Origin: Nymphaea colorata
Taxonomy: Eukaryota; Streptophyta; Magnoliopsida; Nymphaeales; Nymphaeaceae
DNA: 64,000 nucleotides
NCBI RefSeq assembly: GCF_008831285.2
Contig: NC_045143.1
Coordinates: 6,891,503-6,955,502 of the forward strand
Direction of reading: 5' to 3'
The translations under genes and the position numbers were made by a program. Positions within the stretch are counted from its first letter, which is position 1, and each line of letters opens with the position of its first letter. The notes beneath the pieces were generated by a model. It had not been told where the DNA came from, did no database searches, and saw only the letters and a list, made by a program, of their open reading frames with translations. Positions 27,782 to 63,581 of this stretch are shown piece by piece.

Positions 27782-28167
27782 TTACCTCGCAGATGGATAA
27801 AGGGCTAAATCTGAGTCCGATGTAGCAGTAGCACTAAATGATGTTTTGTTGAATGATGATGAAGATGTGGAGAATGCCCACTTTCTCCCGCTTTCACTTT
27901 TCTCTCTAGATCTCTCTACCTCCACGGCTTCTTTCAAGTGAGCCACAACCTCTGTCATAGTAGGCCTTATGACTGACTTCTCCTCAGTGCATGTCATTGC
28001 CATCTCTGAAACCATCCGTATGGAGTTGATATCGTACTGACCTTGTAGTCTGGGATCAATAATTGCGTTGATGTCCATTTTCCTAAGTTCTGGCCGAACA
28101 AGTTGAACTAGTGGAACTCTTTCTCGATTGACATCGGTTGATATGGCAGATCGGCCAGTAATGAGCT

Positions 28168-28457
28168 TGATAAACTGAGACAATGATTAGAAAAGAAGGA
28201 GGTGGAGAGAAAGAATGGCACACGGTTTACGTGGTTCAGCTTTGCAGCCTACATCCACGAGCAAGAGAGACCAATATGATGATATATTCACCACTGCTGA
28301 TACACTTGTCTTTATACATCAAGGGAATATTAAAAGGAAAGGAAATTTGAGAAATTTCCATAAACAATGTATACGTTAATTGATGACCGTTGCCCAACTT
28401 TATTTCCTTGCCAATAGTTGCCATATTGATCTTCTTTTGGTCGTTGCAATTCTGTCA
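28168..28457 (-). repeat. 3' LTR of the young copia element
   Basis: 290 bp, TG...CA ends in element orientation (TGACAG ... TTTATCA). Its first three bases are also the stop codon of the polyprotein. Confidence 0.95.
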
Positions 28458-31400
28458 CTCCCCCTCAAGTGGGGCGTACATGTTGTGACATCCCCACTTG
28501 CTAGTGGCTATATTCAATTTCAGTTTGCTGACTCCTTTAGTTAAGGCATCGGCAACTTGATCGGTGCCTTTAATGTAAGGAGTTCTAATTTCTCCAGATA
28601 TGACTTTCTCTCTGATGTAATGACAATCGATCTCAATATGTTTGGTTCTCTCATGAAATACAGGGTTTGTAGATATGTGTATTGCAGCCATGTTGTCACA
28701 AAACATATCCATTGGCTTGGTAATACTAAAACCCATTTCTTCAACAAGGTTCTTAGTCCATGTGAGCTCACTAGCACCAGATGCCATTGCACGGTATTCT
28801 GCTTCTGCACTAGACTTAGCCACCACTCTCTGTTTCTTGCTTTTCCAAGATACTAGATTTCCTCCGACAAAAACACAGTATCCTGTGGTAGATCTTCTGT
28901 CACTAATGTCACCTGCCCAATCAGCATCAGTAAAACCAACAATGTCAATATTTTTGTTTCTTTTATACCAGAGTCCTTGCCCTGGAGTACCCTTCACATA
29001 TCTGAGGATGCGATCAACTGCGTTCATGTGAGATTCTCTTGGACTTTGCATATATCTGCTAATGACATTCACAGCATAAGAGATGTCAGGACGAGTAACT
29101 GATAGATATATCAACTTACCCACAAGTCGTTGGAACCTTTCTTTTTCAACTTCAGGTTCATCATCGCAAGGTCCAATTTTGAGGTTTGGTTCAATAGGAG
29201 TGTCTGCCGGTCGAGCATCTAACTTTCCAGTCTCCTTTAAAATATCTAATGCATACTTTCTTTGACATAGCATAATACCTTTATACGATTGAGCAACTTC
29301 AATACCAAGAAAATATTTGAGTTTTCCCAAATCCTTTATGTCAAAGGTTTTCTTTAAGTAGTCTTTCAGAATCTGAATGCCTTCTGTATCATTTCCAGCC
29401 ACAACTATGTCGTCTACGTAAACTAAGACCACAGTGATGTTTTCTCCACATTTTTTGACAAATAAGCTATTGTCTGAGTGACACTTGTGGTACCTTGATT
29501 TTTCTAATGCCTGACTCAACTTTATGTACCAAGCTCTGGGAGATTGTTTTAAGCCATATATAGCTTTATTGAGTTTGCAGACTCTTCCTTTCCTTTCATC
29601 TGGGTGACCTGGTGGTAAAGACATATAAATTTCTTCATTGAGTTCTCCTTGTAAGAAGGCGTTTTTGACATCTAGTTGATGTAGACTCCAATTCAAGTTG
29701 CAAGCAATAGAAAGCAATATTCTCAAGGTGTTCATCTTTGCGACAGGAGCAAATGTTTCTTCATAATCCAACCCTTTAGTCTGTGTGAACCCTTTAGCCA
29801 CTAGACGAGCCTTGTATCTCTCTAAGGATCCATCGCTATTGTACTTTACTCTATAATGCCATTTGCACCCCACTATGTTTGTGTTTTTTGGTGCGGTGAC
29901 AACCTCCCATGTTCTGTTTCGCCTTAGAGCTTCAAGTTCTTCATCCATAGCCTTCCTCCAATTAGGATCTTCTTGAGCCTCTTGAAATGACTTAGGCTCT
30001 TGAATGTTATCAAGATTTCTAACAAACTTGGCATGATTGTTGGAAATTTGATTGTAGGACACATATTTGTTGATTGGGTAGGTTTCATAATCTACTAGGC
30101 GTGAAGGAGCGTGCCTAATTCTCTCAGATCTTCTGAGAAGTGTTGAGTTGTTCTCTACATCTTCGGTAGTAGTTGCAAGTTCTTGATCATTTGTGGGGCT
30201 TTCATTCTCAGCATGAATCTCATTATTGGCTCCCTGTACATCAACCACAGTGATAAACAAGTCATCATAATCATGCAAAGTTGAGTTAGTGGGCTCCCCC
30301 TGACTTTGTCCATCTATATTGACGTTAAAGTAAGAGAGAGATTCATTGAATTGCACATCACGGGAAATAAAAGTTTTTCTAGAGACAGGGTTATAGCAAA
30401 CGTACCCTTTACTTTGCATATCATAGCCCACAAAAATGCATTTAATAGATCGAGGACTTAACTTGTCTCTTTTTGATGGATGTTGCCACACGTATGCAAC
30501 ACATCCGAACACCCGAAGATGATCGAGCTTAGGTTGAGATCCCATGAGACGCTTGATAGGACTATGGTAGTTCAACAATTTGCTCGGAGTCCTATTAATA
30601 ACATAGCATGCTGTAGAAATAGCATATTTCCAATAATTTTTTGGTACATTCATCTGAAACAAGAAACTTCTTGCTACTTCGAGTAAATGTCTATTTTTCC
30701 TTTCAGATATACCGTTTTGTTGAGGTGTATCCACACAAGACGTCTCATGTCTAATACCATGTTCACCAAGAAAAAAATTGAAATCATGATTTTTATATTC
30801 AGTGCCATTGTCAGATCTAATACTTTTAATTTTCAGTCCATATTGAGTTTCAATCATTTTGTAAAAATTTTTGAAGTGAGAGAACACTTCGGACTTATTT
30901 TTCATAAAATAGACCCACATGGTCCTAGAAAAATCATCAATGAAAAGCACATAGTAACGAAATCCATCCATAGAATCAATAGGCGCAGGGCCCCAAACAT
31001 CAGAGTGTATTAAATCAAATGGTTTTTGGCTAATGGAATCAGATAAAGAAAATTTAGGTCTAGTCATTCTAGCAAATTTGCATATTTCACACTCTCTACA
31101 ATTGAAACAAAGATTAGGAAATAGATATTCTAAAATTCTAGAAGATGGATGTCCCATCCTTTGGTGCCAAATTTCTCCATTGTTGGCATGATTCACGTTC
31201 AATGCATGATTCATAGTTCTTATTTGATAGAGTCCATGGATGAGTTGCCCTTCACCAATCGTCTTCTGAGTCATCCGATCCTGAAAAATAACATTAGTAG
31301 CAGAAAATACTACATTGCAATTTAATTCCTTTGTAATTTTAGCAACTGATAGGAGATTGTTAGTAAGGTTAGGCATGACAAGCACATTGCTTAAATGACT

Positions 31401-32696
31401 TTTGTTAAAAAAATCTATTTTACCCGATCCATTGACAGCTATTGGAGCCCCGTTGGCAGCAGCTACAGGACCAATATCTTTAGAATGACAATAGGAACTT
31501 AAGAGAGAAGATTTATTGGCCATGTGATCTGTTGCTCCCGAGTCAACTATCCATTGTAAATCTTGACCATCAATGTTATTAACAGAAGTAAGAGCCATAC
31601 CTGATTTGATTGTACCTTTGTTCCCCAAGTTGGTTGCGATGCCGGCGGTTCTTTGGACTTGAAGTTCTTTAATCATTTCAGCCAATTTGTCCAAAGTGAT
31701 CTGATTTTCCAATGAAGTCGTGGCATGATTTGCTTGATTGGAGTTGTGATCTCTTTTTTCTTGATTGCGAGCCATGCTTCTAATGAAAGAATTCTGCCCT
31801 TTTTCAGGTTTCCCATGAAGGAACCAGCAGGAATCTCGAGAGTGCCCATTCCTCTTGCAGTGAGTGCACTTGACTTTCCTAGAGTCCTCACGTTTGTATT
31901 TGAATGACCTCTCACCGGTGGTAGAATAAGCATTATTGCTTGTTGCAAAAGCCAATTTTTCTTCATTGGGTATTTCTTGATAACCGTCAGCCAGCATTCC
32001 CATAGCCTTACGCCTGGACTCTTCACGCATAAGCAAGGATAAAACTGATGCTAGAGAAGGCAAATCATGGGCCATAAGTATTTGACTACGAAGTTGTTCA
32101 TAATCATTAGGCAGGCCGGCTAAAATTTCAAAGATGCGATCTTGTTCACGCTGCCTTTTGGCCTTAGTAAGGTCTGTAGTAAGAGGTGAGTATATGTCCA
32201 TCTCATCCCATATTGCTTTAAATGTACCAAGATATTCACTAATAGATGACATTCCTTTTTTCAAGCAACCCTTCTTTTGTGCTAATTGATACATACGGGC
32301 AGTATTGTATTGTTCTCCATAAAGGTCTTTGGCCCCTTGCCAAACTTCTTCGGCGGTTTCTAAGAAGGTAAAACTTGTTGCGATCTTGGGCTCCATAGAA
32401 TTTATGAGCCAAGATGCTACAGTGTCGTTGGTGGACCTCCATTCCTTGTATTTTGGATCATTAATGGCAGGTTTTTTTATACTACCGTCAATATAATCCA
32501 ACTTAGATTTTCCACTAAGAAATCGTGTAACTGCCTTAGACCATGGCAAATAGTTGAAACCATCAAGCAAGGTGTGAGTAATTTTGAGATTGGGGTTACC
32601 TTGTTCATGAACGACAATCTTATGCATCGACCCATCGCTGGTTTGAATGATGGTGGCTTCATCGTTGTCATTCCTGGTTTCCCTTTCTTGCTCCAT
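28455..32696 (-). CDS. Copia gag-pol polyprotein, intact, 1413 aa
   Basis: A single frame encodes all copia functions in the expected order: gag (about 30-250), CCHC zinc knuckle (CTHCKRNGHSRDSC, about 280), aspartic protease (WIVDSGATDH, about 383), GAG-pre-integrase (WHQRMGHPS, about 510), integrase (DLIHSDVW about 560, RSDNGTEY about 628, QQNGISERKNR about 660), reverse transcriptase (from about 920, catalytic YVDD about 1090) and RNase H (ADWAGD, KSSAEAEYRAM, FCDNMAA about 1333). The start ATG lies about 50 bases inside the primer-binding site. The frame ends LEGE over the polypurine tract and stops at the first LTR codon. I see no missing catalytic residue. Proteins would form virus-like particles and integrate a new DNA copy. 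Confidence 0.95.
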   Translation of the reverse strand: MEQERETRNDNDEATIIQTSDGSMHKIVVHEQGNPNLKITHTLLDGFNYLPWSKAVTRFLSGKSKLDYIDGSIKKPAINDPKYKEWRSTNDTVASWLINSMEPKIATSFTFLETAEEVWQGAKDLYGEQYNTARMYQLAQKKGCLKKGMSSISEYLGTFKAIWDEMDIYSPLTTDLTKAKRQREQDRIFEILAGLPNDYEQLRSQILMAHDLPSLASVLSLLMREESRRKAMGMLADGYQEIPNEEKLAFATSNNAYSTTGERSFKYKREDSRKVKCTHCKRNGHSRDSCWFLHGKPEKGQNSFIRSMARNQEKRDHNSNQANHATTSLENQITLDKLAEMIKELQVQRTAGIATNLGNKGTIKSGMALTSVNNIDGQDLQWIVDSGATDHMANKSSLLSSYCHSKDIGPVAAANGAPIAVNGSGKIDFFNKSHLSNVLVMPNLTNNLLSVAKITKELNCNVVFSATNVIFQDRMTQKTIGEGQLIHGLYQIRTMNHALNVNHANNGEIWHQRMGHPSSRILEYLFPNLCFNCRECEICKFARMTRPKFSLSDSISQKPFDLIHSDVWGPAPIDSMDGFRYYVLFIDDFSRTMWVYFMKNKSEVFSHFKNFYKMIETQYGLKIKSIRSDNGTEYKNHDFNFFLGEHGIRHETSCVDTPQQNGISERKNRHLLEVARSFLFQMNVPKNYWKYAISTACYVINRTPSKLLNYHSPIKRLMGSQPKLDHLRVFGCVAYVWQHPSKRDKLSPRSIKCIFVGYDMQSKGYVCYNPVSRKTFISRDVQFNESLSYFNVNIDGQSQGEPTNSTLHDYDDLFITVVDVQGANNEIHAENESPTNDQELATTTEDVENNSTLLRRSERIRHAPSRLVDYETYPINKYVSYNQISNNHAKFVRNLDNIQEPKSFQEAQEDPNWRKAMDEELEALRRNRTWEVVTAPKNTNIVGCKWHYRVKYNSDGSLERYKARLVAKGFTQTKGLDYEETFAPVAKMNTLRILLSIACNLNWSLHQLDVKNAFLQGELNEEIYMSLPPGHPDERKGRVCKLNKAIYGLKQSPRAWYIKLSQALEKSRYHKCHSDNSLFVKKCGENITVVLVYVDDIVVAGNDTEGIQILKDYLKKTFDIKDLGKLKYFLGIEVAQSYKGIMLCQRKYALDILKETGKLDARPADTPIEPNLKIGPCDDEPEVEKERFQRLVGKLIYLSVTRPDISYAVNVISRYMQSPRESHMNAVDRILRYVKGTPGQGLWYKRNKNIDIVGFTDADWAGDISDRRSTTGYCVFVGGNLVSWKSKKQRVVAKSSAEAEYRAMASGASELTWTKNLVEEMGFSITKPMDMFCDNMAAIHISTNPVFHERTKHIEIDCHYIREKVISGEIRTPYIKGTDQVADALTKGVSKLKLNIATSKWGCHNMYAPLEGE
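28458..28470 (-). other. Polypurine tract of the young copia element
   Basis: ACTTGAGGGGGAG on the minus strand immediately precedes the 3' LTR; it primes plus-strand DNA synthesis. It also encodes the last residues of the polyprotein. Confidence 0.9.
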
Positions 32697-32748
32697 AATG
32701 ACTCACTGTTTGAAGCTTGATGGTGTTTGTCTCATATGATCTTCTTAT

Positions 32749-32760
32749 GCTCTGATACCA
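32749..32760 (-). other. Primer-binding site of the young copia element
   Basis: TGGTATCAGAGC on the minus strand, complementary to initiator-Met tRNA, directly adjacent to the 5' LTR with no spacer. Confidence 0.92.
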
Positions 32761-33050
32761 TGATAAACTGAGACAATGATTAGAAAAGAAGGAGGTGGAG
32801 AGAAAGAATGGCACACGGTTTACGTGGTTCAGCTTTGCAGCCTACATCCACGAGCAAGAGAGACCAATATGATGATATATTCACCACTGCTGATACACTT
32901 GTCTTTATACATCAAGGGAATATTAAAAGGAAAGGAAATTTGAGAAATTTCCATAAACAATGTATACGTTAATTGATGACCGTTGCCCAACTTTATTTCC
33001 TTGCCAATAGTTGCCATATTGATCTTCTTTTGGTCGTTGCAATTCTGTCA
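32761..33050 (-). repeat. 5' LTR of the young copia element
   Basis: 290 bp, identical by eye to the 3' LTR at 28168-28457. It enters the kinase exon of copy C right after codon CTC, adding an in-frame TGA. Confidence 0.95.
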
Positions 33051-35153
33051 GAGCTCAAACAGGACAACCCCAAATCCATACACGTCACTCTTCTCAGTAA
33101 CTTTGTTGGTATAACAGTACCTAAATACACAAAAAAGGCTTAGCGATCAAGTCATTTTAATGAAATTAGTCTTTCATTCCACCAAAGGATTGGAAAAAAC
33201 AAAGAACAAAAAGAAAAAAGAATAGGATCGTGTTGCAGAAACACATAAAGCCAAAGGAACTCATCTCCCCTGTTTGTGAGTAGTATTGAATGAGGAGCTG
33301 ACCCTATAAAGGTAGGGATCCTAACTCCCAACATATCCTTGTGGGAAATAGAAACTAATGCTAAAGAGGAATTTAGAGATTGTAAGTAATTGCACACTTA
33401 GTGCTCTGGAAAAATGCACAAACCATACCAGGATGGGTTCTTGCATCAAATTGGACATAGTCAGTATCCTCTCAAGGACATGTACTTATGTGAAGTTGTC
33501 CGAGACCATAAGCTAGTTATGGAGGATTATCTATGGTTTACCAGAACAATCTAGGAACTGAACTTAATAAGACAATTCATGGTTGATTTAAACCTTGATT
33601 TAAATAGGCCACCCAAAAGATTCAAAGCAGAATTGATTGACTAAATTAATCTTCATTTCATGAGGACAATAACATACTCAGGGTCCAGATATCCAGCTGT
33701 GCCTGCAACAACAGTTGTAATATGTGTAACCTCATCTGAGACAACAGCCTTTGATAGCCCAAAATCTGCAATTTTTGCTTCAAAATTCTCATTAATTAGA
33801 ATGTTGCTTGACTTCACATCCCTGTGAATGAATGCCGGTCTACATCCTGAGTGCAAGTAATCTAGGCCTGCATCCTCAAATTTGTATCCCATTTTAAGTA
33901 TTTGGATAGCACAAAAAGTTGAAGACAAAGATCAAACCATGTACAAGGAATATGAAATTGTTCAGAGGATTAGGCGCTAACCTTTTGCTGCACCCAAAGC
34001 AATGTTCAACCGTTGTTGCCAGTTCAACGCATCAGCCGCTTCTTCTGTAAAAGATACTGTCCTTGAGTTTTTCGAAAATCTGAAACTGAATCTTTTCGTT
34101 CTCAACACATGTCAAGCATCCCAAGAGCACAATAAATGATAAAATGCCAGAAAGCGAATACTTTGGTGTTTGAAAGTGAGTTGAACAAATATAGGTGGTC
34201 TGTCAATACTGGTTTTCAGTCAGAATAATATGGACCAAAGCAGGCACTTGTAGACATATATACCTGAAAGTAGTTTCTGAAGGTTTCCATTAGACATGTA
34301 CTCGTAAACGAGGATCAATGCTTTTTCATCATCACAGTACCCAACAAAGGGTGTTAAATGTCTGCAGTGAACTTGCATCAGCATCTTAACCTGCAATCAC
34401 ATGTAAGAGATCACTGTTGACCAGTAGTTTACGAGTGCTTGCAATGCTTTTTTCCAAATATTTTCTTTTCACCATACAAACCTCAGTAGCAAATTCCATG
34501 GTTCCTCGTTCAACAAATCTTGAGGACAGCTTCTTAACTGCGACTTCGTGTCCATCTTTGAGGCGTCCATAGAAGACAGTGCCAGACCCTCCTCTACCAA
34601 TAACTTTTTCAAAGTTGTTCGTCATTTCCATTACTTGGGAGTAAGTGAAAGTGCAACTTTTGCCGGATCCCAATCTTGCATGTTGTCCCGAAAGACTGTC
34701 TACCATTTGTCTGTTTGCTTGTGGAGGCCCACCTTCTCCAGGCTTGTCTATGTCAGAAGAGTTGAAGGAATTGTTAGAATGTGATGTATCTTATTGTATA
34801 GGCATGAATACAGAGTCATATGGAAACGAATTGACCTTCTAACTTGCTGGACCAGCAGCGGTGAGATTCAAATCACAAGATGGAGAACAAATTTCCTTGA
34901 TTGAATTTGTATTTCCCCTTCCACCTATGTAGTTGATCAATTCCATGTGTAATTAACTAGCTCTGCCTTAGAAGTCTGGCAGAATTGGTTGATAACTAGA
35001 TCCCATTTGGCATCACAAAAATTGTGATTCTTCCGTTCACAAAGTGAGCCCAACTAGTTAATTTGTTTCCATATGCAGTCATTAACGTACTTTTGGTTAA
35101 ATTAAACAACGTATCTAAGAATTTGTTTCATCCCTTCGTGCAGTATATAATAC

Positions 35154-35296
<143 letters not shown>

Positions 35297-38200
35297 GTGC
35301 TTGTGATATGTTCATCTATGCATGCTAAATCCTTGCTGGCATGTAGAGAGAAACTCACCCTGGTTTCTTCGCTTGATCACTGCAGTTACCACCATAAGAA
35401 GAATTGTGGTTGCACTAACAAGAGATACCACAACCAGAATCACAATTAAATGCTTCCTGCCCTTTTCATCTTGGCCGCATTGATTTTCCTGACAAATCCG
35501 AGGATTGCCTTCAATTCTTCAACGAGGAAAAGAAAAAGAAGAAAAGATGATTTAGTTAGCATTACCGGACGAAAGACAAACTTATCACATTATTCTTTTT
35601 CAAGTTTGTGCAAACCTTAGTATGAGTACTCCCGTTTTATTTTTTTGTTGCAAGCCAGGAGGGATTGATCCAGAGAGATCGTTCATTGACAGATCACTGG
35701 ATTTGCACACCAAATGTGTCATAAGAATTAAATAATTTTACAACCACACCATCTTAACCTAAAGAAGCTTCTCACATGTTGATCAAATTTTGGAGGTCTT
35801 GCAAAAATGTTGGCACTGGTCCATACAGGTTGTTCCTTGACAAGTTCCTAACGAACAATGAATTTAAAGCAACAACAGTGACAGCAGTGAAGTTAGTTGA
35901 GTTCACAAACTTTACGTGTTGCAACTTAAAGCAGCTAATTAGTGTTTGACAAACTCACAATGTTTTAAGTGATGTCAGTTCAAAAATTTGTTGAGCAATA
36001 GAACCATTCAGCTCACTATTAGAAATATCCCTGCAAATGAAATGTCAGATGGTACATTACTTTCCAAGAAAAAACATGGAGCTGTCAACCATTCCGCAAA
36101 CAAGCAGAAGACTCACAAAGTCAATATTCGTGGTGTTGAAGCATTGTCACAGGTCAGACCATCCCAAGGAGAAACAGGAAGACAAGGATCTCCCTGCCAG
36201 TGTTTCTTTAGATTGTACAACTCTTTGATTTTCTGAAGAGCACTAACTGCACATAGAGGATGGAGAATTTACAAAAGGAGAAAAAATTCGCAAAGGTGTA
36301 AACATTCAATTAAAAAATCTGGTCAAAACTTCCTTCCAGATTAGATTCACCACGGTTGTTTAGTATACATTGAAAACTATCAAGCTGGTCTCAAATTGCA
36401 TGCGGATAACATTGTAATAGCTTATTTATTTCTTAAATGAAGTTTCCGTTGTAGCAAATTCAATCCCATATTGTGCATAAGAGAAAATGAACCAGAAGGG
36501 GTCATTTGGTAATAGTTATGTGATGTTATTGTTCTATGAATATGTCCCAAAAAATGAGAGAGACTCATAAAACACTTGTGCAAGTGTCCCATGAATGAAT
36601 CTTCTACAATTTTTGAAATAGATTCATGCAATAACAACTTGTTACTCTTGCCAAACAGCCCCTAAGTGCCTCTCTATGTGTGTTGAATCCCCCCCATGTC
36701 TAAAAACTTCAACCCAAAAGGAAAAACAGAGTATCCTTAATCCAGTCATTAGGAAAGGAAAGGGGAAAAAAAAAAAGGAAAACATGACTTAGACAACAAT
36801 TATGGAACCGCAGTGTAATGCATCTTGACAGTACACAGAATTCTGGTTACGTAACGAAGCATTTGAGTTCCATTCTTTGAAATATTGCACCAATACTTTT
36901 GATTTGTATTGAGCGATATAGCCATACTTTGTGAGAGTTACCGACCGAGGGTAATACAAAATAGTCGATACTTGCCTTTGACTTTACACACACTAATCGG
37001 TTCCGGCACACCCAAAGGTGCTTATTAATATACTGTATGCTTACCGTGTACCCCTGTTTCGAAGAGGAAGTAATAATGAGAGCAAAATTTTAACACCATC
37101 TACCTTCTCGGGCGTCGGTTGCGGAGCTGTTGAATGTAAGCGCTTTGTAGACCTCGAAGGAGTTGAGGACCGCGCCCTCGTCTGAAGCATTGTCCGACCG
37201 TATGGAGAATTTATACTGGGAGACGGTTTCCGGACTAGTTGAGTACAGAACACTGCTATCGAGGTAGGAAACTGAGGCATTGCCCCAGACCTGGCCGTTC
37301 ATTAGAACGTTCATCCGCCTCGATTGGGGGTCGGCCGGTCGTACTACGTCGGCGAACTCTAAGTAGAGGTAGAACATGTCGTCAACTCTCCCAGTCCAGT
37401 TCACCAAGATCTCATCCTTCGAGTAGACAGCAGTTTGCATCACGATCGACGGCATCCCAAAGAGTGGTTCACCAGACTCACTCACTGTTTCAGTTGTGCT
37501 GTTCGGAGTCCCATAACCGTCGTACTCTGGCTCCCATATGCGATCAAAGCGGTCTTCCGGGTACCTAGGTTCAGTGATTTAAATCTAGAACGTCACTTAA
37601 ATTATGCTGGATTAAAAATAAAGGAACGTACATTTTTCAAAATTTTTGCCAAATAGACGTGAGCTACACAAATGAAAAACCAAATTTTGATTTTGAAACT
37701 AATATTTGAAGTAGAATCTCATAAGACCTGAAATTTCGACGATACAAAATTCCTGAAAACCTGAAAGTTACGTCCTACCGGATACAGGACATTCATGTCA
37801 TATATAATTGTTGCAGCTCTTCGTTTCCTTTTAAGTACAAGAGCACGGTTACCGTTGGGAGAAATAACACTACTCACCCAGTCTCATCGTTGGCCCCAAC
37901 GTCTACTCGCTTGAATGTTTTCAAAGCAAGCGAGAGCGAGCTATTGGCGGGGGCATACATGTCTGGATCGAGTGGCCGAAGCTTCAAAGCAGAAATGAAA
38001 GGTGTTCCATGTCCTGTGTTCACGAGGCACGCATACAGGAAGTTCACACCAAGATAGAGGTCGAAGCGGGGCAGTTCACTGAGGCCGTCATAATTGCCGT
38101 AAAGGAAGGAGGCCCGGACAAGATACTTAGTGCCAACAGTCGCAAGCAGCTGATAGCAGTTTCTTGTGTTGTTTGGGAACGATCTCACCGTAGAGTAAGC

Positions 38201-38904
38201 CTCGCTCGCCGTAATGCCATTCTTTAGGATCTAGCGGAATGTCCACCCCACTGTCAATGTACCCGTCATCGGTGACATAGGGGAGGTTGTCTGAGTAATT
38301 GTAGTTAGCTGTCTCGCTTCGTCCACAATCGATGCTGATAAATCCTGCGACCAAATTTCAGAAATTTAATTACTAATTTACTACTACTTTTGTCGAAATC
38401 AAGAAAAAAAAAAAGAAAAGTAGAATTGTCAAGTTTAATGTCTTTTCTGTTCATGGAGTAGTCTAAACATAATAATAAATAGTATTATTAGGAAACACGT
38501 CTGAGGGCTTGGATTCCTAATGCAATAATGTGGTAGTGTTTAAAACGCCTCGTGAAAGGTTGTTAGTGAGAGTATCAAAACGGCTCCACCGAATCAGGTT
38601 CAGCTCCCAAGCTGGTTATATAATACTCACCCTCTCTCGTAAACAAAAAAAAGTGTGCACCACTCTGTATGATGACAACAATACCACAATACTCCTGTTC
38701 ATAAAAAGGATAATAATTTTTTGTAAGGACAAAAGTGGTAATGAAAAAATTAAAAGTCTCAAAAACACATCTCTTTTTTAAAATTCCTTACAATCTTGCA
38801 ACTACCACTCAACTCACTCACTCCCTCTCTCTTGCTTTGTCCCTTTTCTTTTTATCATATCGAGCAACCTGCACACCCTTATATTTCGCACATGTATAAA
38901 TGTA

Positions 38905-40448: not shown

Positions 40449-40600
40449 CTTCTTGTGCTCCTACTAGTAACAGGGCAACCGCACAGCTGAACATAAAGAA
40501 GAAACCATGAGCATCCATCATCTTTTCCGCAACTTTTCTATGTCCTAGCTCTTACAATGTCAGAGCCTCTGAATATCCAGCAACTCCTCTCCGATTCTTT

Positions 40601-40608
40601 AATATATA
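40601..40608 (-). promoter_or_regulatory. Probable TATA box of copy C
   Basis: TATATATT on the minus strand, about 80 bases upstream of the copy C start codon, within sequence that is conserved with the upstream regions of copies B and D. A start site near 40575 would give a leader of about 55 bases. Confidence 0.5.
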
Positions 40609-40689
40609 AGTGTAGATCATAGGAAGGACCTCCAGATGAACTGGACTGAAGTTCAGTGCTGTTACGTAGCAGTCTCCGTTAGTCAACAA

Positions 40690-42010
40690 TCGATGTTCAT
40701 AAACCTGCTGCCAAATTGTATTATGTGCACACCCGGAGGCAAAATTGTGCACAGGGTGATCAATTACTTATTTAAGTAAAAAAAAAAAAAAAAGCTTTGA
40801 ATGTTTATAAAGACATTAAAATTTTAAAATGTATATTTTTTATAAAAAAATTCAAAACTAACCTAACCCCAAAGATTAAAATATACAATTTTAACAAAAT
40901 TATCGAAAATACCCCACCGCCTTTTTTTTCCCCTTTGGTATATTTGTAAGTGTAAAGGGGTGTCACGCAACTCCATCTCCAGCAAATTATGCATGTCGGC
41001 TACCAGAAGAGGTATCTGAACTAATGATCTTTCAGAAATTTAATTACCAATTGTATCGAAATCAAGAAAAAGAAAAGGCAGAATTACCAAGTTTAATGTC
41101 TTTCTACCAAATTAAACATGTCTGAGACCAGGGGTTGGTCACGCAATAATATGTTACTGTTTAAAACGCCTGTGAGAAAGGGACTAGTCCAAAGACATCC
41201 GGGACGAAAAGCTTCAAATTTCTGTTCACTCGTAGTGATTGGCAACAGAAGCGGAACCAGAAACCGTACTACTCCTTTTTACAAAAATGTTTTGAAAATT
41301 TAGTGGGGCAAGGTGAAGATCAACTGTTGGAAGTCTCCGCTAGCAAAATCAGGTGCTTAAGGCGAATAACTGCAATTGTAAGTGCTTTTGGGTGACTTGT
41401 TCATAAATTGGAAACCAATAGCAGAAGGGTAAAATTTCTTTTCAAGCTGTAAACAAATTCAATAAAGTTAAATATACTAATCACTTATTAAAAACAGAAG
41501 AACAGATCGATGAGATCCAAATGTAGTATAAAGCACTACAACGACTGCCAGAAATCGAGTAAAATTTTATTTCTTCATTAAAGAAAAAAGAGGGCATAGG
41601 ATGGCTCAAAAGGTTATTTTGGTCTGGAGGCAGCAAGACTTGCCAGCTTGCAGTTCACCGCCTGAATCGTAATTCAGCTTGCCGGCAAGCTTCTGCTATA
41701 TCCGGTCGTGGTCATGGTCAAGCATACGAGGATCTTCCCTTCCAAAAGAACTTATCTATATTATCTATTGAAGAAGATTATTTCTGCAGGAAGATGAGAA
41801 GGAATTTCCGGTAAACGATTACATATTCAAGTGTTTAGAGAAGGTTGTGGCCGTAATTTGTCTAATTAACTGGATTATCAGGAGAGAGTCGTTCAACTGA
41901 TGGGAAAGACTCGAATTAAGAAGAGAGAACGTTTGAATACCTGTTTGTGATCCTCCCAGTAAGAGGACAGCAGCACAACAGAGCAGAAAGAATAAACCGT
42001 GTACATCCCT
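40690..42010 (-). pseudogene. Receptor-like kinase copy D: exon 1 and a stub of exon 2
   Basis: Exon 1 (about 41942-42010) encodes [20 protein letters not shown], clearly the family signal peptide, but the two ATG codons of copies A-C are replaced (GAG AGG). Intron 1 has the same length as in copy B (about 1.2 kb) and aligns with it. Exon 2 begins at 40704 with GFMNIDC-like codons and then a stop; one G at the exon boundary is missing, and after about 15 bases the homology ends in sequence belonging to the promoter of copy C. It is the 5' stump left by an exchange between two copies. Exon 1 of copy D might still be transcribed into copy C, but the start codon is lost. Confidence 0.82.
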
Positions 42011-50190: not shown

Positions 50191-50407
50191 TGTAGGATGA
50201 CCCGTTAGAATTTTGAAAAAAAAAATCTTTTTTATTAGTCAAGATATTGTTTCAAATTCTGTTGTAACAGAGAATCCGTTGTAACTCCATATCCTTAATT
50301 TCTTGCTACTATGTATATTAAGATAGAAAGTTGTCAATAACAATGTACAAAACATACGATTCTTCCTCTTGAGCCTCTTCTTCTTCTTTCTTACTGTTAA
50401 TTTCACA
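50191..50407 (+). repeat. 5' LTR of the plus-strand copia element
   Basis: TGTAGGATGAC ... ACTGTTAATTTCACA, followed directly by the primer-binding site at 50408-50419. Confidence 0.92.
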
Positions 50408-50516
50408 TGGTATCATAGCACCCTTGTGGGTAAGAGAGTTGGCTTTCTACTCTCTTGTTTCTCTGCTTTGTGCCTTGTTCTTCATTCTGCTGTGCCCTGT
50501 TTTTCATTCTGCTCTC

Positions 50517-53500
50517 ATGGCTACCGCATCGGGCGTTCATAATAATGGTGATGATCAAATTGAAGCCAACACGTCACCCTTTCTCCTGCACCACTCGGAT
50601 AATCATGGTGCTATCCTTGTGACCAGTCCTTTAGTCGGTGACAACTATGCAACATGGCAGAGAGCAATGAAGATGGCCTTAAGTGCAAAGAACAAATTTG
50701 GGTTTGTTGATGGTTCCATTCCCAAACCTCCGCTAAACAGTCCAGACCATAAAGCTTGGATCCGCTGCAATGATCTGGTACATTCATGGCTTCTCAACTC
50801 ACTCTCAAAGGAAATCGCTAACAGCGTTATCTATGCCAATGAGGCTCGTGAGGTATGGAATGACCTACAAGATCAGTTTTTCTTAAGGTAATGCTTCTCG
50901 TATTTACCAATTGAAGAAGATGGTTTCTGATCTACGACAAGAGCAATGCTCCTTACCAAATTATTTTACTCGTCTAAAGACTTTATGGGATGAAATTGCT
51001 TCATATTCTACTGTCCCTACATGCTCTTGTGGTGCTTTTAAAGAGTTCAATTTCTGTCAAGATCGTGAGAAAGTGTATCAATTTTTGATGGGACTCAATG
51101 AATCCATTACCCAATATTAACAAGGTTTACTCCCTTGTGGTGCAAGAGGAAACTCGGCGACTACTAGTTCCACAGCTCTTAAGTTCTGAAAATACTGCGT
51201 TAGCAGTAAACTCGCTACCTTCTTATAACAAAAACTTTCAGCCAAGAGGACAGCAGTACACTAGGAACAGACCACGTCCAAAATGTGACCATTGTGGACA
51301 ACTTGGGCATATCCAAGCACGCTGTTATGCATTACATGGCTACCCGCCTAACCATCCAAAATTTAAAGCTTCACCTGAAATGGCTAAAGGCGGACACACT
51401 CAAAATGGATCCTCGGCAAATGTCACTACTGCTACAACAGTTCTCTCCCAACTGACTGAAGATCAACTCAGCAAATTAACAGCATGGCTTAGTGCTGATG
51501 ATAAACCTGCTGCCGCAAACATCGTAGGTAAGCATACACTCAATTTCTCCAATCATTTACCATGGATTATTGATACCGGAGCATCAGACCACATGACCCC
51601 CCAACTTCATTTGATGTCCAATGTCATTCCTCTACCCAAAGTGCGTCTTATTAATCTTCCAAATGGCCAGCAACTTTCAGCTACTCATACAAGAACCATT
51701 AAACTCCAGCCGAGTCTCATACTTATAGACGTCCATTACATACCAGAATTTAAATACAATCTATTGTCAATTCCTAAACTCACCAAAACCACTGACTATG
51801 CTGTTGTTTTTCTCTCATCTTGCTATCTCTTTCAGGACCATTTGTCGAAGAGGCTGATTGGAGTGGGTAGCTTATGTGGCGGATTGTACCATCTATGATT
51901 ACCAGCCAGTTCTCATGCTCTTTCTATTTCTTCTCTTAATAAATCTCATGTTTGGCATATGAGACTTGGACACCCGTCTTTTGACAAAACTCAATCTTTG
52001 AATTCTGATGTTCTTATTTCCAAGCATGAATTTCTATGTGATTATTGTCATAAAGCTAAGTTCTCCCGCTTGCCCTTTTCTCATAGTAGCAGTAGAGCGA
52101 GTTTCCCATTTGCATTGCTTCACTGCGATATTTGGGGAGGATATGCCACGACCTCACATACTAGAGCACACTACTTCCTCACTATAGTTGATGATTTCTC
52201 TTGTGCAACTTGGGTCTTCTTGATGCGCTTTAAGTCTGAAACCTTTTCTTGTTTCACTCGGTTCCATGCTATGGTAGAAAACCAATTTCATACCAAAATT
52301 AATTGCCTTCGAAGTGATAATGGTTCAGAATTTATCGCAAATAATATGCAAGAATTTCTTTATATACATGGGATAGAACACCAAACTTCATGTCTTGCGA
52401 CACCGCAACAAAATGGAAGAGTTGAAAGAAAACATCGTCACTTACTTGAAGTCGCCCGAGCGCTTCGTTTTCGTGCACACCTACCTATTAAATTTTGGGG
52501 CGAATGCATTTTAACAGCCACATTCTTGATTAATCGTCTCCCATCCCCTATTTTGAATAATAAATCTCCTTTTGAACTCTTGTTTCATAAAAAGCCCATC
52601 TATGAAGATTTGCGTGTTTTTGGATGTCTATGTTATGCTTGAAATATGAGTGCACACCGAGATAAATTTATTACACGTGCATATAGATGCATTTTTGTAG
52701 GATATCCTTCAAATAAAAAAGGATATAAAGTCTACAATCTTGACTCCAAAGAAATTTTTATATCGTGATGTGGTATTTTATGAAGACCGGTTCCCATTCC
52801 AATTTCAAAATGATGATGGTTTGAACTCACCAGCACCACAAGAAGACTATGTGAGTGAAGAAAGCGACTCTCCAATTGTAAGTGCGCATGAGCCAGTTCC
52901 ACCAATGTCGCCACCCATTCCACCTACCCATCTCGTTTCTACTGAACCAGTCAATCATCATACGAAAATCAAGTCGCCCAAGACACCCACCTTCCTATCC
53001 CAATCAGTATGTGTGCTCAAACGTGATGGTATCAGATTCGACGCCTAAGGATCCTCACTCCATGACGCCATCTTCAGGTACACAGTATCCCATTCAGAAT
53101 TATCTTTACCATTCTAAGTTTTCCCCACCACACTTTGCTTTTTTGACCTCTATTTTGAGTGATGCTGAACCTAGCTCGTATGCGGAAGCGGTGCAACATC
53201 AACACTGGTGCCAAGTTATGGCTGACGAGATCCATGCTCTCCAACAAAATACCACTTGGTCTCTTACTACCCTATCTCCAAATAAAAACCCAATTGGATG
53301 TCGTTGGGTATATAAAGTCAAACGGAGGTCTGATGGTACCATCGAACAAAGCCCGACTTGTAGCAAAAGGGTATACTCAAATTGAGGGTGTCGATTTTCA
53401 TGAGACTTTTGCTCCAGTCGCCAAGCTTACTACCATGAGGACTTTACTTGCGGTTGCTGCAACTCGTCAATGGCCCATATATCAAATGGACGTTAGTAAT

Positions 53501-54755
53501 GCATTCATACATGGGGATCTGCACGAAGAAGTTTATATGACCATTCCTCCAGGCCTTCTTCGTGAGGGGGAGTATTCCAGTACTATTGTTTGTCGCCTCC
53601 ATAAGTCCTTATACGGACTTAAACAATCACCACGTAACTGGTTTCACAAGCTCATGACTGCCCTTAAGGATGCTCATTTTATTCAATCCAATGCAGATTA
53701 CACATTATTCACTCGGCACTCTGGAAATCAGTTTATTGCTATCCTAGTGTATGTGTATGATCTTATTATTACAGGAAATGATGAGCATGGTATTTCTTCA
53801 ATCAAGATCTTTTTACACTCCAGATTCCATGTAAAAGATCTAGGAAATCTCAAGTATTTCCTAGGAATTGAGGTTGCACGAGCGCCATCCGGGATATTTT
53901 TAAATCAAAGAAAGTATGCATTGGAGATTCTTTCTGACGCTGGTCTATTAGGAGCAAAACCAGCCGAGTTTTCTATGGATCAAAAACTGAAACTAACTCT
54001 AGATGAAGGTGAACCGATTAAAGATCCAGCTATGTATCGAAGGTTAGTAGGGCGCTTGATCTATTTGACCATTACTCGTCCAGAGATAACATATTCAGTT
54101 CATACGTTAAGTCAATTCATGCAATCACCACAACTTCCACATTATGAAGCAGCTCTTCGCAAACTAAGATACTTAAAATCATCTCCTGAAAAAGGTATCT
54201 TTCTATCATCATCTAGTGAAATGCAGTTAAGAGCGTATTGTGATTCTGATTGGGTGAGCTGTCCTTCAAGTCGGAAATCAGTAAGTGGTTTTGTGGTTTT
54301 TCTTGGCAAAAGTCCAATCTCATGGAAGTCAAAGAAGCAAACTACCGTAGCCAGATCATCCGCAGAAGCGGAATATCGAGCGATGGCTACTGCTGCATGC
54401 AAAATTGTATGGTTGAAAGCACTATTAAAGGATTTGGATGTACACCATCACAAACCAATAAGTCTATATTGTGACAATAAAGCAGCCTTGTATATCTCCA
54501 AACATCCAGTTTTCCATGAACGAACAAAACATATAGAACTGGATTGTCATTTTGTTCGAGAGAAGGTTCAACAAAAAATAATTCAACCTCAGCATGTATC
54601 CACGTCATTGCAGCTGCCTGATATTTTCACAAAACCATTGGGCAGAGATATGTTTCAAAGCTTGAAGGCCAAGTTGGGTGTCACAGATTGCACACTCCAA
54701 CTTGAGGGGGAGTGTAGGATGACTGCCGAAACCGTTAGAATTTTGAAAAAAAAAA
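50517..54755 (+). pseudogene. Copia gag-pol polyprotein with frameshifts and stops
   Basis: Gag starts at the ATG at 50517 (MATASGVHNNG) and breaks at about 50880-50890 (frameshift plus stop where related elements read FSQGNASRIYQ). Further parts: zinc knuckle CDHCGQLGHIQARC (about 51285), protease WIIDTGASDH (about 51570), GAG-pre-integrase RLGHPS (about 51962), integrase 51959-52642 (RSDNGSEF, QQNGRVERKHRH), an in-frame TGA at about 52642, then reverse transcriptase from about 53200 and RNase H to the LEGEC end at about 54715. The catalytic YVDD of the reverse transcriptase reads YVYD (about 53750), so the enzyme would be inactive even with frames restored. Confidence 0.92.
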
Positions 54756-54937
54756 TCTTCTTTATTAGTCAAGATATTGTTTTCAATTCTGTTGTAACAG
54801 AGAATCCGTTGTAACCCCATATCCCTAATTTCTTGCTACTGTGTATATTACAATAGAAAGTTGTCAATAACAATGTACAGAACATACGATTCTTCCTCTT
54901 GAGCCTCTTCTTCTTCTTTCTTACTGTTAATTTCACA
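54713..54937 (+). repeat. 3' LTR of the plus-strand copia element
   Basis: 225 bp, same ends as the 5' LTR; it carries eight bases (around TGCCGAAA) that the 5' LTR lacks. Confidence 0.92.
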
Positions 54938-57122: not shown

Positions 57123-58257
57123 TTAGACGAACATCCAGGACAGTACCAGAACCAGAGCTATGACCATTGAAATCAACGATGCATTAACATTCTTGCCCTC
57201 GTGGCTCTTCTGATCTTGGCTGCATTGATCTTGTAAGCAGATCTGGGAATTGCCATCAATCCTTTTGAAGACGAAAGAGAAAAAAGAAAAGAAAAATTGA
57301 CGAGTTAGTTCATATATCCAGGAACTAAGGCGCAATATTGGTCAAACTACTTGCTCCTTTGAACTGAAGTCGAACCTTAACATTAGTTTCCCGCTCGATA
57401 TCCGTTCACGCAAGCTGTCTGGAATCGGCCCAGAGAGGTTGTTGCTCGATAGGTCTCTGATATTCATGCACCATATATATGTGACATGGAACCCATTTTG
57501 TCTAATATACATCAAGGCCACATGATATTAGCTTAAAAATGTACTCACATATTGACTAAATATGGCATTTCCTGCAAAAATGATGGCACCGAACCATAGA
57601 GATTGTTGGTGGACAAGTTCCTAAATAAAAGAGAAAACAGCGAATGAGATAATTAAAAGGAAAAAAGGTTGAAGCTAAAACATCATATCTCTTGAAAGAC
57701 TTACAATGTTCTAAGTTTGGTCAGATTTAAAATGTGGCCGCTAATCATACCATTCAGCTCACTGTTAGAAAGGTCCTTGCAAATGAAAATTTTGTGAAGC
57801 ACATCAATTAGCAAGGTGTTATCACAAGCCACTCTTTCCCCGAAGTCAGTACGTGAATTCTTACAGGCTCACTATTCGCGGTTCTGCATCACCGTCGCAG
57901 GTCAAGCCATCCCAGGGAGAAGGTAGACACGGATCAGCAATCCAGTTTTTCTGCAGTTGATAGTACTCCTTCAAGGCTGTGATGGCCGTAACTGAAAGGG
58001 GAGCTGAAATTTTGAGGGAGAATTTTTTTCTTTTTTCTGGAAAAGTTAAAGATATAGAACTGAAGAGGAGAGCTATCAGTTGAATTGTCAGCAGATTATC
58101 AATTATAATACATCTCATTATCATGACATATCTCATTCTGTTAGAGAAATATGATTTTTCTCTTCATTTTGTCACGGATAATAGTATACAGTTTACAACT
58201 TGGTAGCCAATAATTGTTTACCTAAAATATAATTGCTGTCTGTTGTATCCATATGGG

Positions 58258-58863
58258 TGTTGGGATAAAAGCGGATAGGACACGAATCTACTAAAATTGA
58301 TTCAACAACAAAATATATCTCAAATCGATCATGCAATGAGCAACGAATCAACGACCAAGCAATCCAAGCAAAGTAATCACAATCCCAAACTGCACAAGAA
58401 GATTTTACGTAAAAAACCCCTCAAAAACAATGAAGGTAAAAACCACGGGATACTACGACCCAAACTCAATCCATTATAATCAATGATATAAGTTATCCCA
58501 CGAAGGGCTACACAAAATCAACCCTCAAACAATAATATCTCATCTAAACTATATGAGAAAACAAGGAAAATATCACCGATGTATTGGGAGAAATCGTGGA
58601 TTGGGAGGAGATGCGTCTGGCTTCCTCCTCAATATCAAAATCTTGTAGCCTTCTCTTCCTTGCCTTCCTCTTCTCCTTCTCTCCTCTTGCTGTGCAGCCA
58701 CACACAAGATCTCCCCTTTCTTTTCCCTCAAAGAAGAAAACCTAGGAGAGAGAGAGACGTGAGAGAGATAGGAGGGCACCATCGGGTGCCTCCCTTTTTC
58801 TTCCACCCGTCACTTAAGTGACGGGCCGGATCGGGTCCTCTTGAGGCTGGACCTGACCCAACA
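58258..58863 (-). repeat. 3' LTR of the copia element in copy E
   Basis: 606 bp. It contains a perfect 20-bp palindrome at 58806-58825 (core CACTTAAGTG), placed close to the start of the LTR in element orientation (U3). Confidence 0.92.
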
Positions 58864-58914
58864 AGCTCACCCTCCAACCTCAAGTGAGGGAACATACCTG
58901 TAAAATGAACAAAA

Positions 58915-61900
58915 TTAATATAATACCTTAAAGGCAGTTATCCCAACTAAGTCTTTACACATATCGTGCTTCTCTTTAGGTAGAGACTTCATCATCATAT
59001 CTGCAGGATTATAATCTGTATGGATCTTATCAAGAACAAGTTGCTTCGACTCTAGAACATCACATATCCAATGATACCTCACGTCTATATGTTTTGACCT
59101 TGCATGAAAAGTATAATTCTTTCCAAGGTGAATAGCACTCTGACTGTCACAGTAAAACACATACTCGTCTTGACTAAATTGAAGTTCCTGCATGAACCTC
59201 TTCATCCATAGTAGCTCCATGCTCGCTTCTGTAGCTGCAATAAACTCTGCTTCAGTAGTAGATAATGCTACACATTTTTGAAGTCTGGATTGCCAAGAAA
59301 CTGCACCACCTGCATATATCAATAAATATCCAGATATAGATTTTCTCCCATCAATGTCTCCTGCCATGTCTGAATCTATATAGCCAATAAGAAAAGATTT
59401 TTCTGCCCCAAAACAAAGTGAAAAACTGCTAGTCTCACGAAGATATCTCAAAATCCATTTAACTTTTTCCCAGTGTTTCTTTCCTGAATTTGAGACAAAC
59501 CGACTAACAACTCCAACTGATTGAGCAATATCAGGTCTAGTACATACCATAGCATACATCAGACTACCTGTGACTGAGGCATATGGAATCTTCTCCATAT
59601 CTTTCTTTTCTGAATCTGTCCTTGGACTCTGCTTGGTGCTCCAACTTGAAATGCGCTGCAAGAGGGGTGCTAACTGGTTTTGCCTTGTTCATATGAAATC
59701 TTTGAAGTACCTTCTCAATGTAATTCTCCTGAGATAGCCATAGCTTCTTCGACTTCCTATCTCGCGTGATCTTCATACCCAAAATCTGACTAGCAGGTCC
59801 CAAGTCTTTCATAGCAAAAGACTTGCTCAACTTCTTTTTCAAGCTTAAAATTCTCGATATATTGTTGCCAACAATAAGCATGTCATCAACATAAATCAAC
59901 AAAATGACAAAATCATCATCTGAGAATTTCTTCACAAAGACGCAGTGATCTGAAGCAGTCTTGGTGTAGCCATACTCCCCCATAAATGACTCGAACTTCT
60001 TGTACCACTGCCTAGGTGCATGCTTCTGACAATACAAGTTTTTCTTTAATCTGCAAACATGGTTTTCTTTACCTTTCACAAGAAAACTTTCGGGTTGCAT
60101 CATGTAAATTTCTTCATCACGATCACCATGAAGAAATGTTATCTTTAAATCTATCTGCTCGATCTCCAAATCAAGACTGGCTGCCAAACTAAGAACAATT
60201 CTGATAGACGACATCTTGACCACCGGTGAGAATATCTCATCAAAGTCAACTCCTTTCCTCTGATTGAACCCCTTCACAACCAACCTAGCTTTGTATCTTG
60301 GGTTTAGAGAGTTTTCATCATGCTTCACTCTAAAAACCCATTTGTTTCTCAATGCCCTTTTGCATTGGGGTAACTCCACAAGCTCGAAGGTGTGGTTGTC
60401 GTAAAGTGACTGCATCTCATCCTTCATGGCTTCCATCCACTTTTCCTTGTGCACATCATGCATAGCTTCTTCATAGCATTCAGGCTCACTACTGTCAGTC
60501 AACAAAATATAGTCATGTGTGGGATATCTACTTGAGGGACGTCGCTCCCTCGTGGATCTCCGCTGTCGATCTACATTTGAGGAAGAACCCTCCAAATTAT
60601 AATCGTCATCTTCGTCATCTAAATTAGGAATATATGGCATGTCTACTTGTTCTTCTCTATCATGTATCTGCCCAATAGCATCATCTGGCACTGCTTTTGA
60701 AGTATTCTACAAAGAAATAGGCTCCACATCAACTGGCAAATAACTGCTATGAGAAGAATCTTTTACTGCTTTCTGAATATCCTCAATATTCTGATCTTCA
60801 GCAAATACCACATCCCTGCTTCTAACAAGCTTCTTCTCAATTGGATCATAAAATCTGTAACTAAATTCATCATGGCCATAACCCAGAAACACGCACTGCC
60901 TGCTTTTTTATTCCAACTTCGATCTCTCATCCTTCGGTATATGCACAAATGCCCTGCATCCAAATACACGTAAGTGCTCATAAGATATATTCTTCTCATA
61001 CCCAACTCTGTTAGGAACATCACCATCCAAAGAAACATGTGGAGACAAGTTAATCACATGAGTAGCAGTATGTAAAGCTTCACACAAAAAAGAATCAGAT
61101 AGTTTACCTTCAGATAAAAGACATCTAACTCTCTCCATGAGTATCATGTTCATTCTTTCTGCCACGCCATTCAACCGAGGAGTCTTAGGTGGAGTCTTCT
61201 GGTGCCTGATGCCATGAGATCTGCAATACTCATCAAATGGACCAATATACTCTCCCCCATTATCGCTGCAAACATACTTCAGCTTCTTTTCTGACTGCCT
61301 TTCAACCAATGCATGAAAGTCTTTAAAAACACCAAGGACTTGGTCTTTCCTCTTCAAAGAATAGACCCAAACTTTCCTGGAGAAATCATCAATAAATGTG
61401 ACAAAAGAAAGTGCACCACCATGTAAACTTACTTTCATAGGACCGCATACATTTGTATGAACCAACTCAAGTGCCTCTGACTTTCTAAAAGGTGGATGAC
61501 TCTTGAAAGAGACCCGCGTCTGCTTTCCTGCAAAACAATGACTGCATTTATCAAGTTTATCTTTCTTTACATCTTGTAGAAAGATTCTTTTTGATCAAGA
61601 ATTGCAGTCCCTTGTCACTCATATGTCCCAATCTCCTATGCCACAACTCAATAGATTTCTCATCCTGTGTCACATGTACCATGTCTCTGGAAATCAATGT
61701 CTGCATAGTATAAAGATTATTGCTGCATCTTTTGCCTCGAGCAATAATCAAGGAACCTCTGGTAAGCTTCTACTGGCCATCACCAAAAGTGTTGTGATAC
61801 CCTTCTTCATCGAGCCTTCCTGCAGAGATAAGATTCAGATGCATGTCAGGTGCATGCCTCACGTCTGTCAGCTTCAATAGAGCTCCATTCGCATTCTTCA

Positions 61901-62453
61901 GAATGACATCACCTCTGCCTACAACATGAGACAAAGAACCATTACCCATTCTCAAAGTTCCAAAATCACTAGAAATATATGAAGAGAAAAACTCTTTATG
62001 GGAAGTAACATGAAGAGCTGAACCACTATCAACAAGCCAACAAGTATCATCTCTGGCAACATTAACCATGTCAGCATCACAAACAATGAACATTTCATGT
62101 TGTGCAGCAGCTGCGACGTTATCATCTTGGTCATTTTTCTTCTCCTGTTTCTCCCCAATTTTATTCTTCTTCTTCAGCTGGAAGCAATACTTCTTTATGT
62201 GCCCTTTCTTTCCACAGTGGTGGCATTCCAAATTCTTATATCTGGGTTTGGACTTGCTTCTGCTTTTATCTCTGCCCCTGTCACTCTTGAATTTACTTCT
62301 CCATCTGTTCTCTGTGAAAAGAACCTCTGTCTGAGAAGAGCAAGCCTGAGATTTTCTTCTCATCTCCTCATTGAAAATACCTGACTTAACAGTCTCTAAA
62401 AAAACAACCCCATTAACTACAGAATTAGTAAGCGAGACTCTAAATGTCTTCAC
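58915..62453 (-). pseudogene. Copia gag-pol polyprotein, frame-broken
   Basis: From right to left: zinc knuckle CHHCGKKGHIKKYC and protease WLVDSGSALH (61770-62453), GAG-pre-integrase LWHRRLGHMS (61557-61751), integrase (60908-61465: VHTNVCGPM, FIDDFSRKVWVY, CSDNGGEY), a linker (60707-60892 and the start of the next frame, RRSTRERR), reverse transcriptase (59564-60691, YVDDM intact) and RNase H (58915-59661: DSDMAGD, ALSTTEAEF, YCDSQSA). Stops or frameshifts separate these blocks, and the gag N-terminus (62454-62940) is not in frame. The protein cannot be made as one chain. It belongs to the element at 58258-63581. Confidence 0.92.
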
Positions 62454-62929
62454 GAATCAGGCAAAGTAGCAAGCAATAATAATCCCAAAATCTCATCTTC
62501 AAATTTAACAACCATACTGGATAACTGATTGGTGATCCCCTGAAAATCATTTTGAAAATCTGACATTGAACTGCTCTCCCTGAATCTCAAATTCATCAAT
62601 ATTTTTAGAAGAAATAATTTACTACTTCCTGTCTTGGAGGCATAAAGATTTTCTAATTTTACCTACAAACTGCATGCATGATTTTCATCTTGGATATGGT
62701 TATAAACATTTTCATCCACAAATTGTTGAATGAAACCACAAACTTGTTCGTGTTAAAATTTTTCATTCCTCATCAGACTTAAAAGTAGGATTTTCTTTGG
62801 AAAAAATAGGGAGGTGCATAGCCTTCATATATAAGAGATCTTTCATCTTATTTTTTCATAGACTATAATTAGTCTCATTTAGGCTAATCATACGGCTAGT
62901 ACCAAAATCAATTTTGTTATCCACCATGT

Positions 62930-62943
62930 TGGCTCTGATACCA
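62930..62943 (-). other. Primer-binding site of the copia element in copy E
   Basis: TGGTATCAGAGCC on the minus strand, a few bases inside the 5' LTR that begins at 62947. Confidence 0.85.
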
Positions 62944-62946
62944 CTT

Positions 62947-63581
62947 TGTTGGGATAAAAGCGGATAGGACACAAATCTACTAAAATTGATTCAACAACAA
63001 AATATATCCCAAACCGATCATGTAATGAGCAACGAATCAACAACCAAGCAATCCAAGCAAAGTAATCACAATCACAAACTGCACAAGATGATTTTACATA
63101 AAAAACCCCTCAAAAACAATGAAGGTAAAAACCATGGGGTACTACGACCCAAACTCAATCTACTATAATCAATGATATAAGTTATCCCACGAAGGGCTAC
63201 ACAAAGCCAACCCTCAAATAATAATATCTCATCAAAACTATATGAGAAAACAAGGGAAATACCACCGATGTATTGGGAGAAATCGTTGATTGGGAGGAGA
63301 TGCGTCTGGCTTCCTCCTCGATATCAAAATCTTGCTCAATTCAAGTGCTCGCAGCCTTTTCTTCCTTGCCTTCCTCTTCTCCTTCTCTCCTCTTGCTGTG
63401 CAGCCACACACAAGATCTCCCCTTTCTCTTCCCCTTTCTTTTCCCCCAAAAAAGAAAACCTAGGAGAGAGAGAGACGTGGGAGAGATAGGAGGGCACCAT
63501 TGGGTGCCTCCCTTTTTCTTCGGCCCGTCACTTAAGTGACGGGCCGGATCGAGTCCTCTTGAGGCTGTACCCGACCCAACA
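62947..63581 (-). repeat. 5' LTR of the copia element in copy E
   Basis: 635 bp; extra bases relative to the other LTR include a segment around 63335-63355 and a second CCCCTTTCTTTTCC-like run near 63430. The U3 palindrome is extended to 24 bp here (63522-63545). Confidence 0.92.

Follow-up and report, generated by a model that had tools for sequence, protein, structure and literature searches.

A young Ty1/copia insertion in the kinase exon of a Nymphaea colorata receptor gene copy that also carries a frameshift in exon 2

Introduction

Was a receptor gene ended by the retrotransposon that now interrupts it, or did the element land in a copy that was already failing? The question is raised by a tandem array of malectin-like, leucine-rich repeat (LRR) receptor kinase genes in a 64,000-nucleotide (nt) window of Nymphaea colorata (NC_045143.1, positions 6,891,503 to 6,955,502), where a complete Ty1/copia element lies in exon 13 of one gene copy, referred to as copy C. 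An earlier note, made from the letters of the window, had described this as a clean recent loss event. The insertion is real, young, and ordinary in kind, but the main correction made here concerns the host copy, which carries two breaks, and the main addition is a near-identical sister insertion in another immune receptor gene. The account favoured below, with a confidence that is high but short of certainty, is the integration of a recently active, complete Ty1/copia element into exon 13 of a tandem receptor copy that is itself also frameshifted in exon 2. The evidence on lesions, age, and insertion sites comes from assembly sequence; contig labels such as C1 and C2 refer to the plant's own genome assembly, in which the window is C6:6891503-6955502.

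A copia element interrupts exon 13 of copy C

The uninterrupted paralogue, copy B, turned out to be an exact empty site, as the earlier note had proposed. When the flanks of the insert were joined, they aligned to copy B exon 13 (12956-12506, 451 nt) with no gap at the junction, and removal of the insert plus one GAGCT restored an exon of 70 + 381 = 451 nt that ends in the same terminal stop as copy B. The GAGCT target-site duplication is perfect, and the range of 28163-33055 that the note gave for the element takes in both of its copies. A 5-mer shared at the same spacing occurred at 87 of 59,107 window positions (~1 in 680), and because of this rarity and the identical ends of the long terminal repeats (LTRs), the duplication is not a chance match. 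The placement of the insertion after kinase subdomain IX was likewise borne out: the kinase frame of copy C reads FEL and then meets a stop at the first triplet of the LTR, so that a transcript entering the LTR would encode a kinase truncated after subdomain IX. The element lies in the sense of the host gene and would have integrated by a 5-bp staggered cut.

The two LTRs are identical at 290 of 290 bases, the element ends are TG...CA, and one uninterrupted frame covers gag and pol, all of which agrees with the claim of a fresh insertion. Pfam matches in this frame were Retrotran_gag_2, Retrotran_gag_3, rve (integrase core), and RVT_2, with rve in the piece 30300-31673 and RVT_2 in the piece 29199-30299 on the minus strand, which puts the integrase upstream of the reverse transcriptase. 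Judged by this order of gag, integrase core, and RVT_2, the element belongs to Ty1/copia, named here at superfamily level. The frame also contains the motifs DSGA, YVDD, and TKHI, which I take to be the marks of protease, reverse transcriptase, and RNase H, respectively; the Pfam scan of the gag-pol pieces gave no match named protease or RNase H. The primer binding site TGGTATCAGAGC presumably matches tRNA-Met. Searches of viral_contigs and genome_contigs returned no relatives of the reverse transcriptase region, and scanning the window against Rfam and for tRNA genes likewise turned up nothing.

A second lesion in exon 2

The recent insertion therefore stands, while the cleanness of the loss does not, since exon 2 of copy C is frameshifted and the frame, read from exon 1, stops at residue 97. 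The reading frame of copy C is thus not intact at two places, residue 97 and the insertion, and because of the former the insertion cannot be taken as the sole cause of this copy's loss, which may have come before it. If the assembly is correct in exon 2, copy C could not encode a full receptor even if the insert were absent. Exon 2 measures 467 nt in copy C versus 550 in copy B, and part of this shortfall is an in-frame loss of 75 nt relative to B, the remainder including the frameshift. The frameshift sits beside a short A run within a length-variable loop of 37 nt in C, 39 nt in paralogues A, D, and E, 42 nt in B, and 45 nt in Z; given the 39 nt of A, D, and E, a loss of 2 nt is the simplest change in copy C. 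The coordinates of all features are collected in Table 1.

Table 1. Features of the insertion and its host gene (positions in the window) and related places elsewhere in the assembly (contig labels)
Feature	Position	Strand	Remark
Ty1/copia element, 4,883 bp	28168..33050	minus	structurally complete; sense orientation of host gene
5' LTR (element sense), 290 bp	32761..33050	minus	opening triplet reads as an in-frame stop in the kinase exon
3' LTR, 290 bp	28168..28457	minus	same sequence as 5' LTR
Primer binding site TGGTATCAGAGC	32749..32760	minus	adjoins 5' LTR
Polypurine tract	28458..28466	minus	immediately 5' of 3' LTR
Single gag-pol frame, 1,415 codons	28455..32702	minus	uninterrupted; stop codon is first triplet of 3' LTR
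Target-site duplication GAGCT, left copy	28163..28167
Target-site duplication GAGCT, right copy	33051..33055
Copy C exon 13, 5' part, 70 nt	33051..33120	minus	ends FEL, then stop
Copy C exon 13, 3' part, 381 nt	27782..28162	minus	one GAGCT dropped
Copy C exons 3-12	33678..37564	minus	aligned coding parts stop-free; GT and AG splice sites in place
Copy C exon 2 (malectin-like)	37878..38344	minus	reading frame shifted, with a stop at residue 97
Copy C exon 1 (signal peptide)	40449..40521	minus	open
Copy B, complete 13-exon malectin-LRR receptor kinase gene, 899 aa	12506..20186	minus	uninterrupted paralogue
Sister copy	C2:2445805-2450687
Sister copy	C9:15435699-15440581
Sister copy	C5:1335426-1340308
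Fifth young place	C3:18439910-18444568		one LTR at 99%; other LTR match 80/290 bases
Seven older places	C4 15.35 Mb; C8; C4 3.8 Mb; C14; C9 19.7 Mb; C1; C4 7.1 Mb

Sister copies and age of the insertion

A search of the genome with the LTR gave 72 candidates, and 40 LTR matches were scored. At four places, on C6 (the window), C2, C9, and C5, both LTRs span exactly 4,883 bp, and the two LTRs differ at 0, 0, 1, and 1 of 290 bases, respectively. The window and C2 copies differ from each other at 1 of 4,883 bases (0/1,790 + 1/1,790 + 0/1,303). C9 and C5 were compared over 3,580 bases, without the middle of those two copies, and each differed from the window copy at 11 of them. A four-copy alignment of the same 3,580 columns contained private changes in the window (1), C2 (0), C9 (6), and C5 (6), and four further changes that split window and C2 from C9 and C5. 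The single private change of the window copy could be a copying error of transposition. As far as these copies tell, the copia family is young and was recently active in this genome.

The near identity of the C2 copy makes it possible in principle that the assembly misplaced an element into copy C. Such an artefact would, however, have to come with a perfect 5-bp duplication at exact TG...CA ends, and the C2, C9, and C5 copies each carry a distinct duplication of their own (CTTTG, GGTCG, and CCCCT), which makes a misplaced element highly improbable.

At 7e-9 to 1.3e-8 substitutions per site per year, the differences gave an insertion age of 16-29 thousand years (kyr) with an upper bound of 88-163 kyr, which suggests an age on the order of 10^4 to 10^5 years; LTR identity confines the insertion to the last 3.2-4.7% of the divergence between B and C. 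Being so young, the insertion is probably still polymorphic in the species. A 900-bp flank compared with the assembly matched itself at 100% and then array paralogues at 81, 80, and 73%, and no second allele or haplotype of the locus was found among the best candidates scored.

Which lesion came first

Divergence between copies B and C was Ks 0.272 (0.219-0.324) and Ka/Ks 0.41 (0.32-0.51), in a comparison whose exon 11 began five codons upstream of its start in the later model. When synonymous and nonsynonymous changes were polarised with E as the outgroup (D for exon 2), the counts were 52:60 for C and 37:79 for B (Fisher p 0.03); with A and D as outgroups, and again with exon 11 five codons too early, they were 24:34 and 20:35. 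Neither count shows a sign of relaxed constraint on the C branch, so copy C probably stopped working recently on the scale of its history and appears, by these counts, to have been under constraint until then.

This bears on the reading that copy C is a long-dead pseudogene in which the insertion is incidental. Several members of the array are indeed broken: copy A shows exons 1 and 2 alone in the window, copy D is interrupted by a stop in exon 3 and yielded no convincing kinase exon in the region from 44.4 to 57.1 kb (best E 0.50), and in paralogue E (C6:6955503-6975502) exon 2 is split between two frames, exon 3 is cut by a stop, and exons 6-8 have no match at E 0.01. The B-C Ka/Ks of 0.41 and the lack of a relaxed pattern on the C branch nevertheless argue against it, the polarised counts by themselves already weakening the idea, and a long-dead copy C seems unlikely.

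The same counts lend some weight to the opposite view, namely that copy C was a working receptor ended by the copia insertion alone, with the exon 2 frameshift arising later or being an assembly error. Copy C has no excess of nonsynonymous change over B, exons 3-13 are free of stops in their aligned coding parts, and splice sites are present, all of which suggest that it was probably functional until recently; the location of the frameshift, in a length-variable loop by an A run, also fits. Against this, the chance of a coding indel arising after the insertion, computed with assumed indel rates, is ~3-10% if the insertion is ~20 kyr old, rising to 19-56% at 160 kyr, and a 2-nt loss, from a loop of 39 to one of 37 nt, is atypical of homopolymer error. 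I consider it possible but rather doubtful that the insertion acted alone.

The favoured account, integration into a copy also frameshifted in exon 2, takes the frameshift as more likely the first lesion, since the very short time since the insertion leaves a low chance of a later indel; the element would then probably have landed in an already dying copy. Several points tell against this account. An indel of one or two bases, as in exon 2, may stem from faulty assembly. Paralogue E, whose flank is 80% identical to that of C as against 81% for B, may not be a true outgroup and is itself damaged, which makes the polarised substitution counts weak. Because copy C has a second break, the visible insertion is no proof of the cause of gene loss.

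Gene context of the family's insertions

Among the five young places, three lie in genes (the kinase exon, a TIR-NBS-LRR gene, and the last exon of a subtilase), all in gene sense. On C9, the joined flanks are open over 246 aa with the junction at residue 231 and match Peptidase_S8 and fn3_6, which places the insertion, by these matches, near the end of the subtilase coding sequence. On C2, a TIR frame ends 142 bp to one side and an NB-ARC frame starts 478 bp to the other, with winged-helix and LRR frames further out; by this arrangement the copy sits inside a TIR-NBS-LRR gene, where it probably occupies the intron between the TIR and NB-ARC exons.

It is tempting to see here an active low-copy copia family that inserts mainly, and in sense, into immune or stress genes, making polymorphic loss alleles in receptor arrays, with the window and C2 copies stemming from one recent burst. 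I put this forward only tentatively, as rather less probable than its negation; the remaining places run counter to it. C5 has no open frame of at least 100 aa in 970 bp and no run of more than 45 codons at the junction, and five flank frames had no Pfam match, so that by open-frame and Pfam measure this insertion is intergenic. On C3, the longest open run at the junction is 32 codons and no gene is seen there; at a distance of 1.7 kb, one frame matches DUF677 below the cut-off. Flanks were listed for nine further places, of which two single-LTR ones, whose flank looks by eye like the element's own gag, were set aside. At the seven older places left, open runs that extend to the junction did not exceed 70 codons, and the one nearby frame tested for each had no Pfam match. 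Selection would also remove old exon insertions and so lower the genic share among older places. A preference resting on three of five young places has too few cases behind it to count as proof.

Comparison with known systems

In structure, no difference was seen between the window element and plant Ty1/copia elements, with which it shares the 5-bp duplication, TG...CA LTRs, a primer site after the 5' LTR, and the order gag-protease-integrase-reverse transcriptase-RNase H in one frame (protease and RNase H by sequence motif). Duplications of 5 bp are reported for 93.4% of plant LTR elements, and primer sites of the tRNA-Met type for most copia groups (PMC6317226).

Arabidopsis ATCOPIA93 and ATCOPIA78 (ONSEN) insert preferentially into environmentally responsive genes, ATCOPIA93 with a marked exon preference, according to a published study (PMC6668482). 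The three of five young places found here in exons or bodies of stress-type genes resemble and fit this published preference, and the present family may likewise favour the bodies of environmentally responsive genes. The Arabidopsis work drew on many insertions and used mutants to link the preference to H2A.Z (PMC6668482), whereas here there are five places and sequence alone.

The receptor copies are likewise unexceptional beside the Arabidopsis MLRR orthogroups (LRR-I / MLRR, in tandem arrays): shared are the signal-peptide exon, malectin-like domain, short LRR run, membrane segment, kinase, and tandem array with broken copies (PMC12382012). No special feature was seen in the window copies relative to such malectin-LRR receptor kinases. 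A literature search returned no direct precedent for a copia insertion in a receptor gene, although published cases may exist. The locus combines a datable insertion, an exact empty-site paralogue, and near-identical sisters in other defence-type genes, and thereby makes insertion preference, polymorphism, and gene loss in a receptor array directly testable by read mapping.

Gene models, the receptor array, and other elements

In copy B, a malectin-like domain, LRR, and kinase stand together in one protein (Pfam Malectin_like PF12819 E 2.8e-83, kinase PF07714 2.8e-47, LRR_1 5.3e-6; the scan used an earlier 913-aa model with a wrong exon 11 acceptor, corrected to 899 aa). Copy C has the same set of exons. 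The exon 11 acceptor lies further downstream than first modelled (63 nt in B and C, in frame), and a one-base frameshift suspected in copy C exon 11 was dropped, as paralogues E and Z share C's state. Copy C has two exon 1 regions (40449-42006), one open at 40521 and the other out of frame near 42006. Loss of its start, suspected from the latter, was rejected given the open candidate, and the region near 42006 is probably the remnant of a partial upstream duplication.

Exon 2 lesions recur in the array, in copies C and E. Similar kinase exons reach far past the window, over about C6:6.58-7.15 Mb, and further clusters of them lie on C1 near 27.9-28.0 Mb, on C6 near 1.35-1.48 Mb, and on C4 near 26.76-26.83 Mb.

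The window holds two more copia elements. One (50191-54937, plus strand) has LTRs 92.4% identical with 9 mismatches, a perfect GAATT duplication, and a coding region broken into several separate open pieces. The other (58258-63582, minus strand) has LTRs 90.6% identical with 31 mismatches and an ATGGG duplication, and sits between exon 3 (63661-63999) and exon 4 (57864-57986) of copy D.

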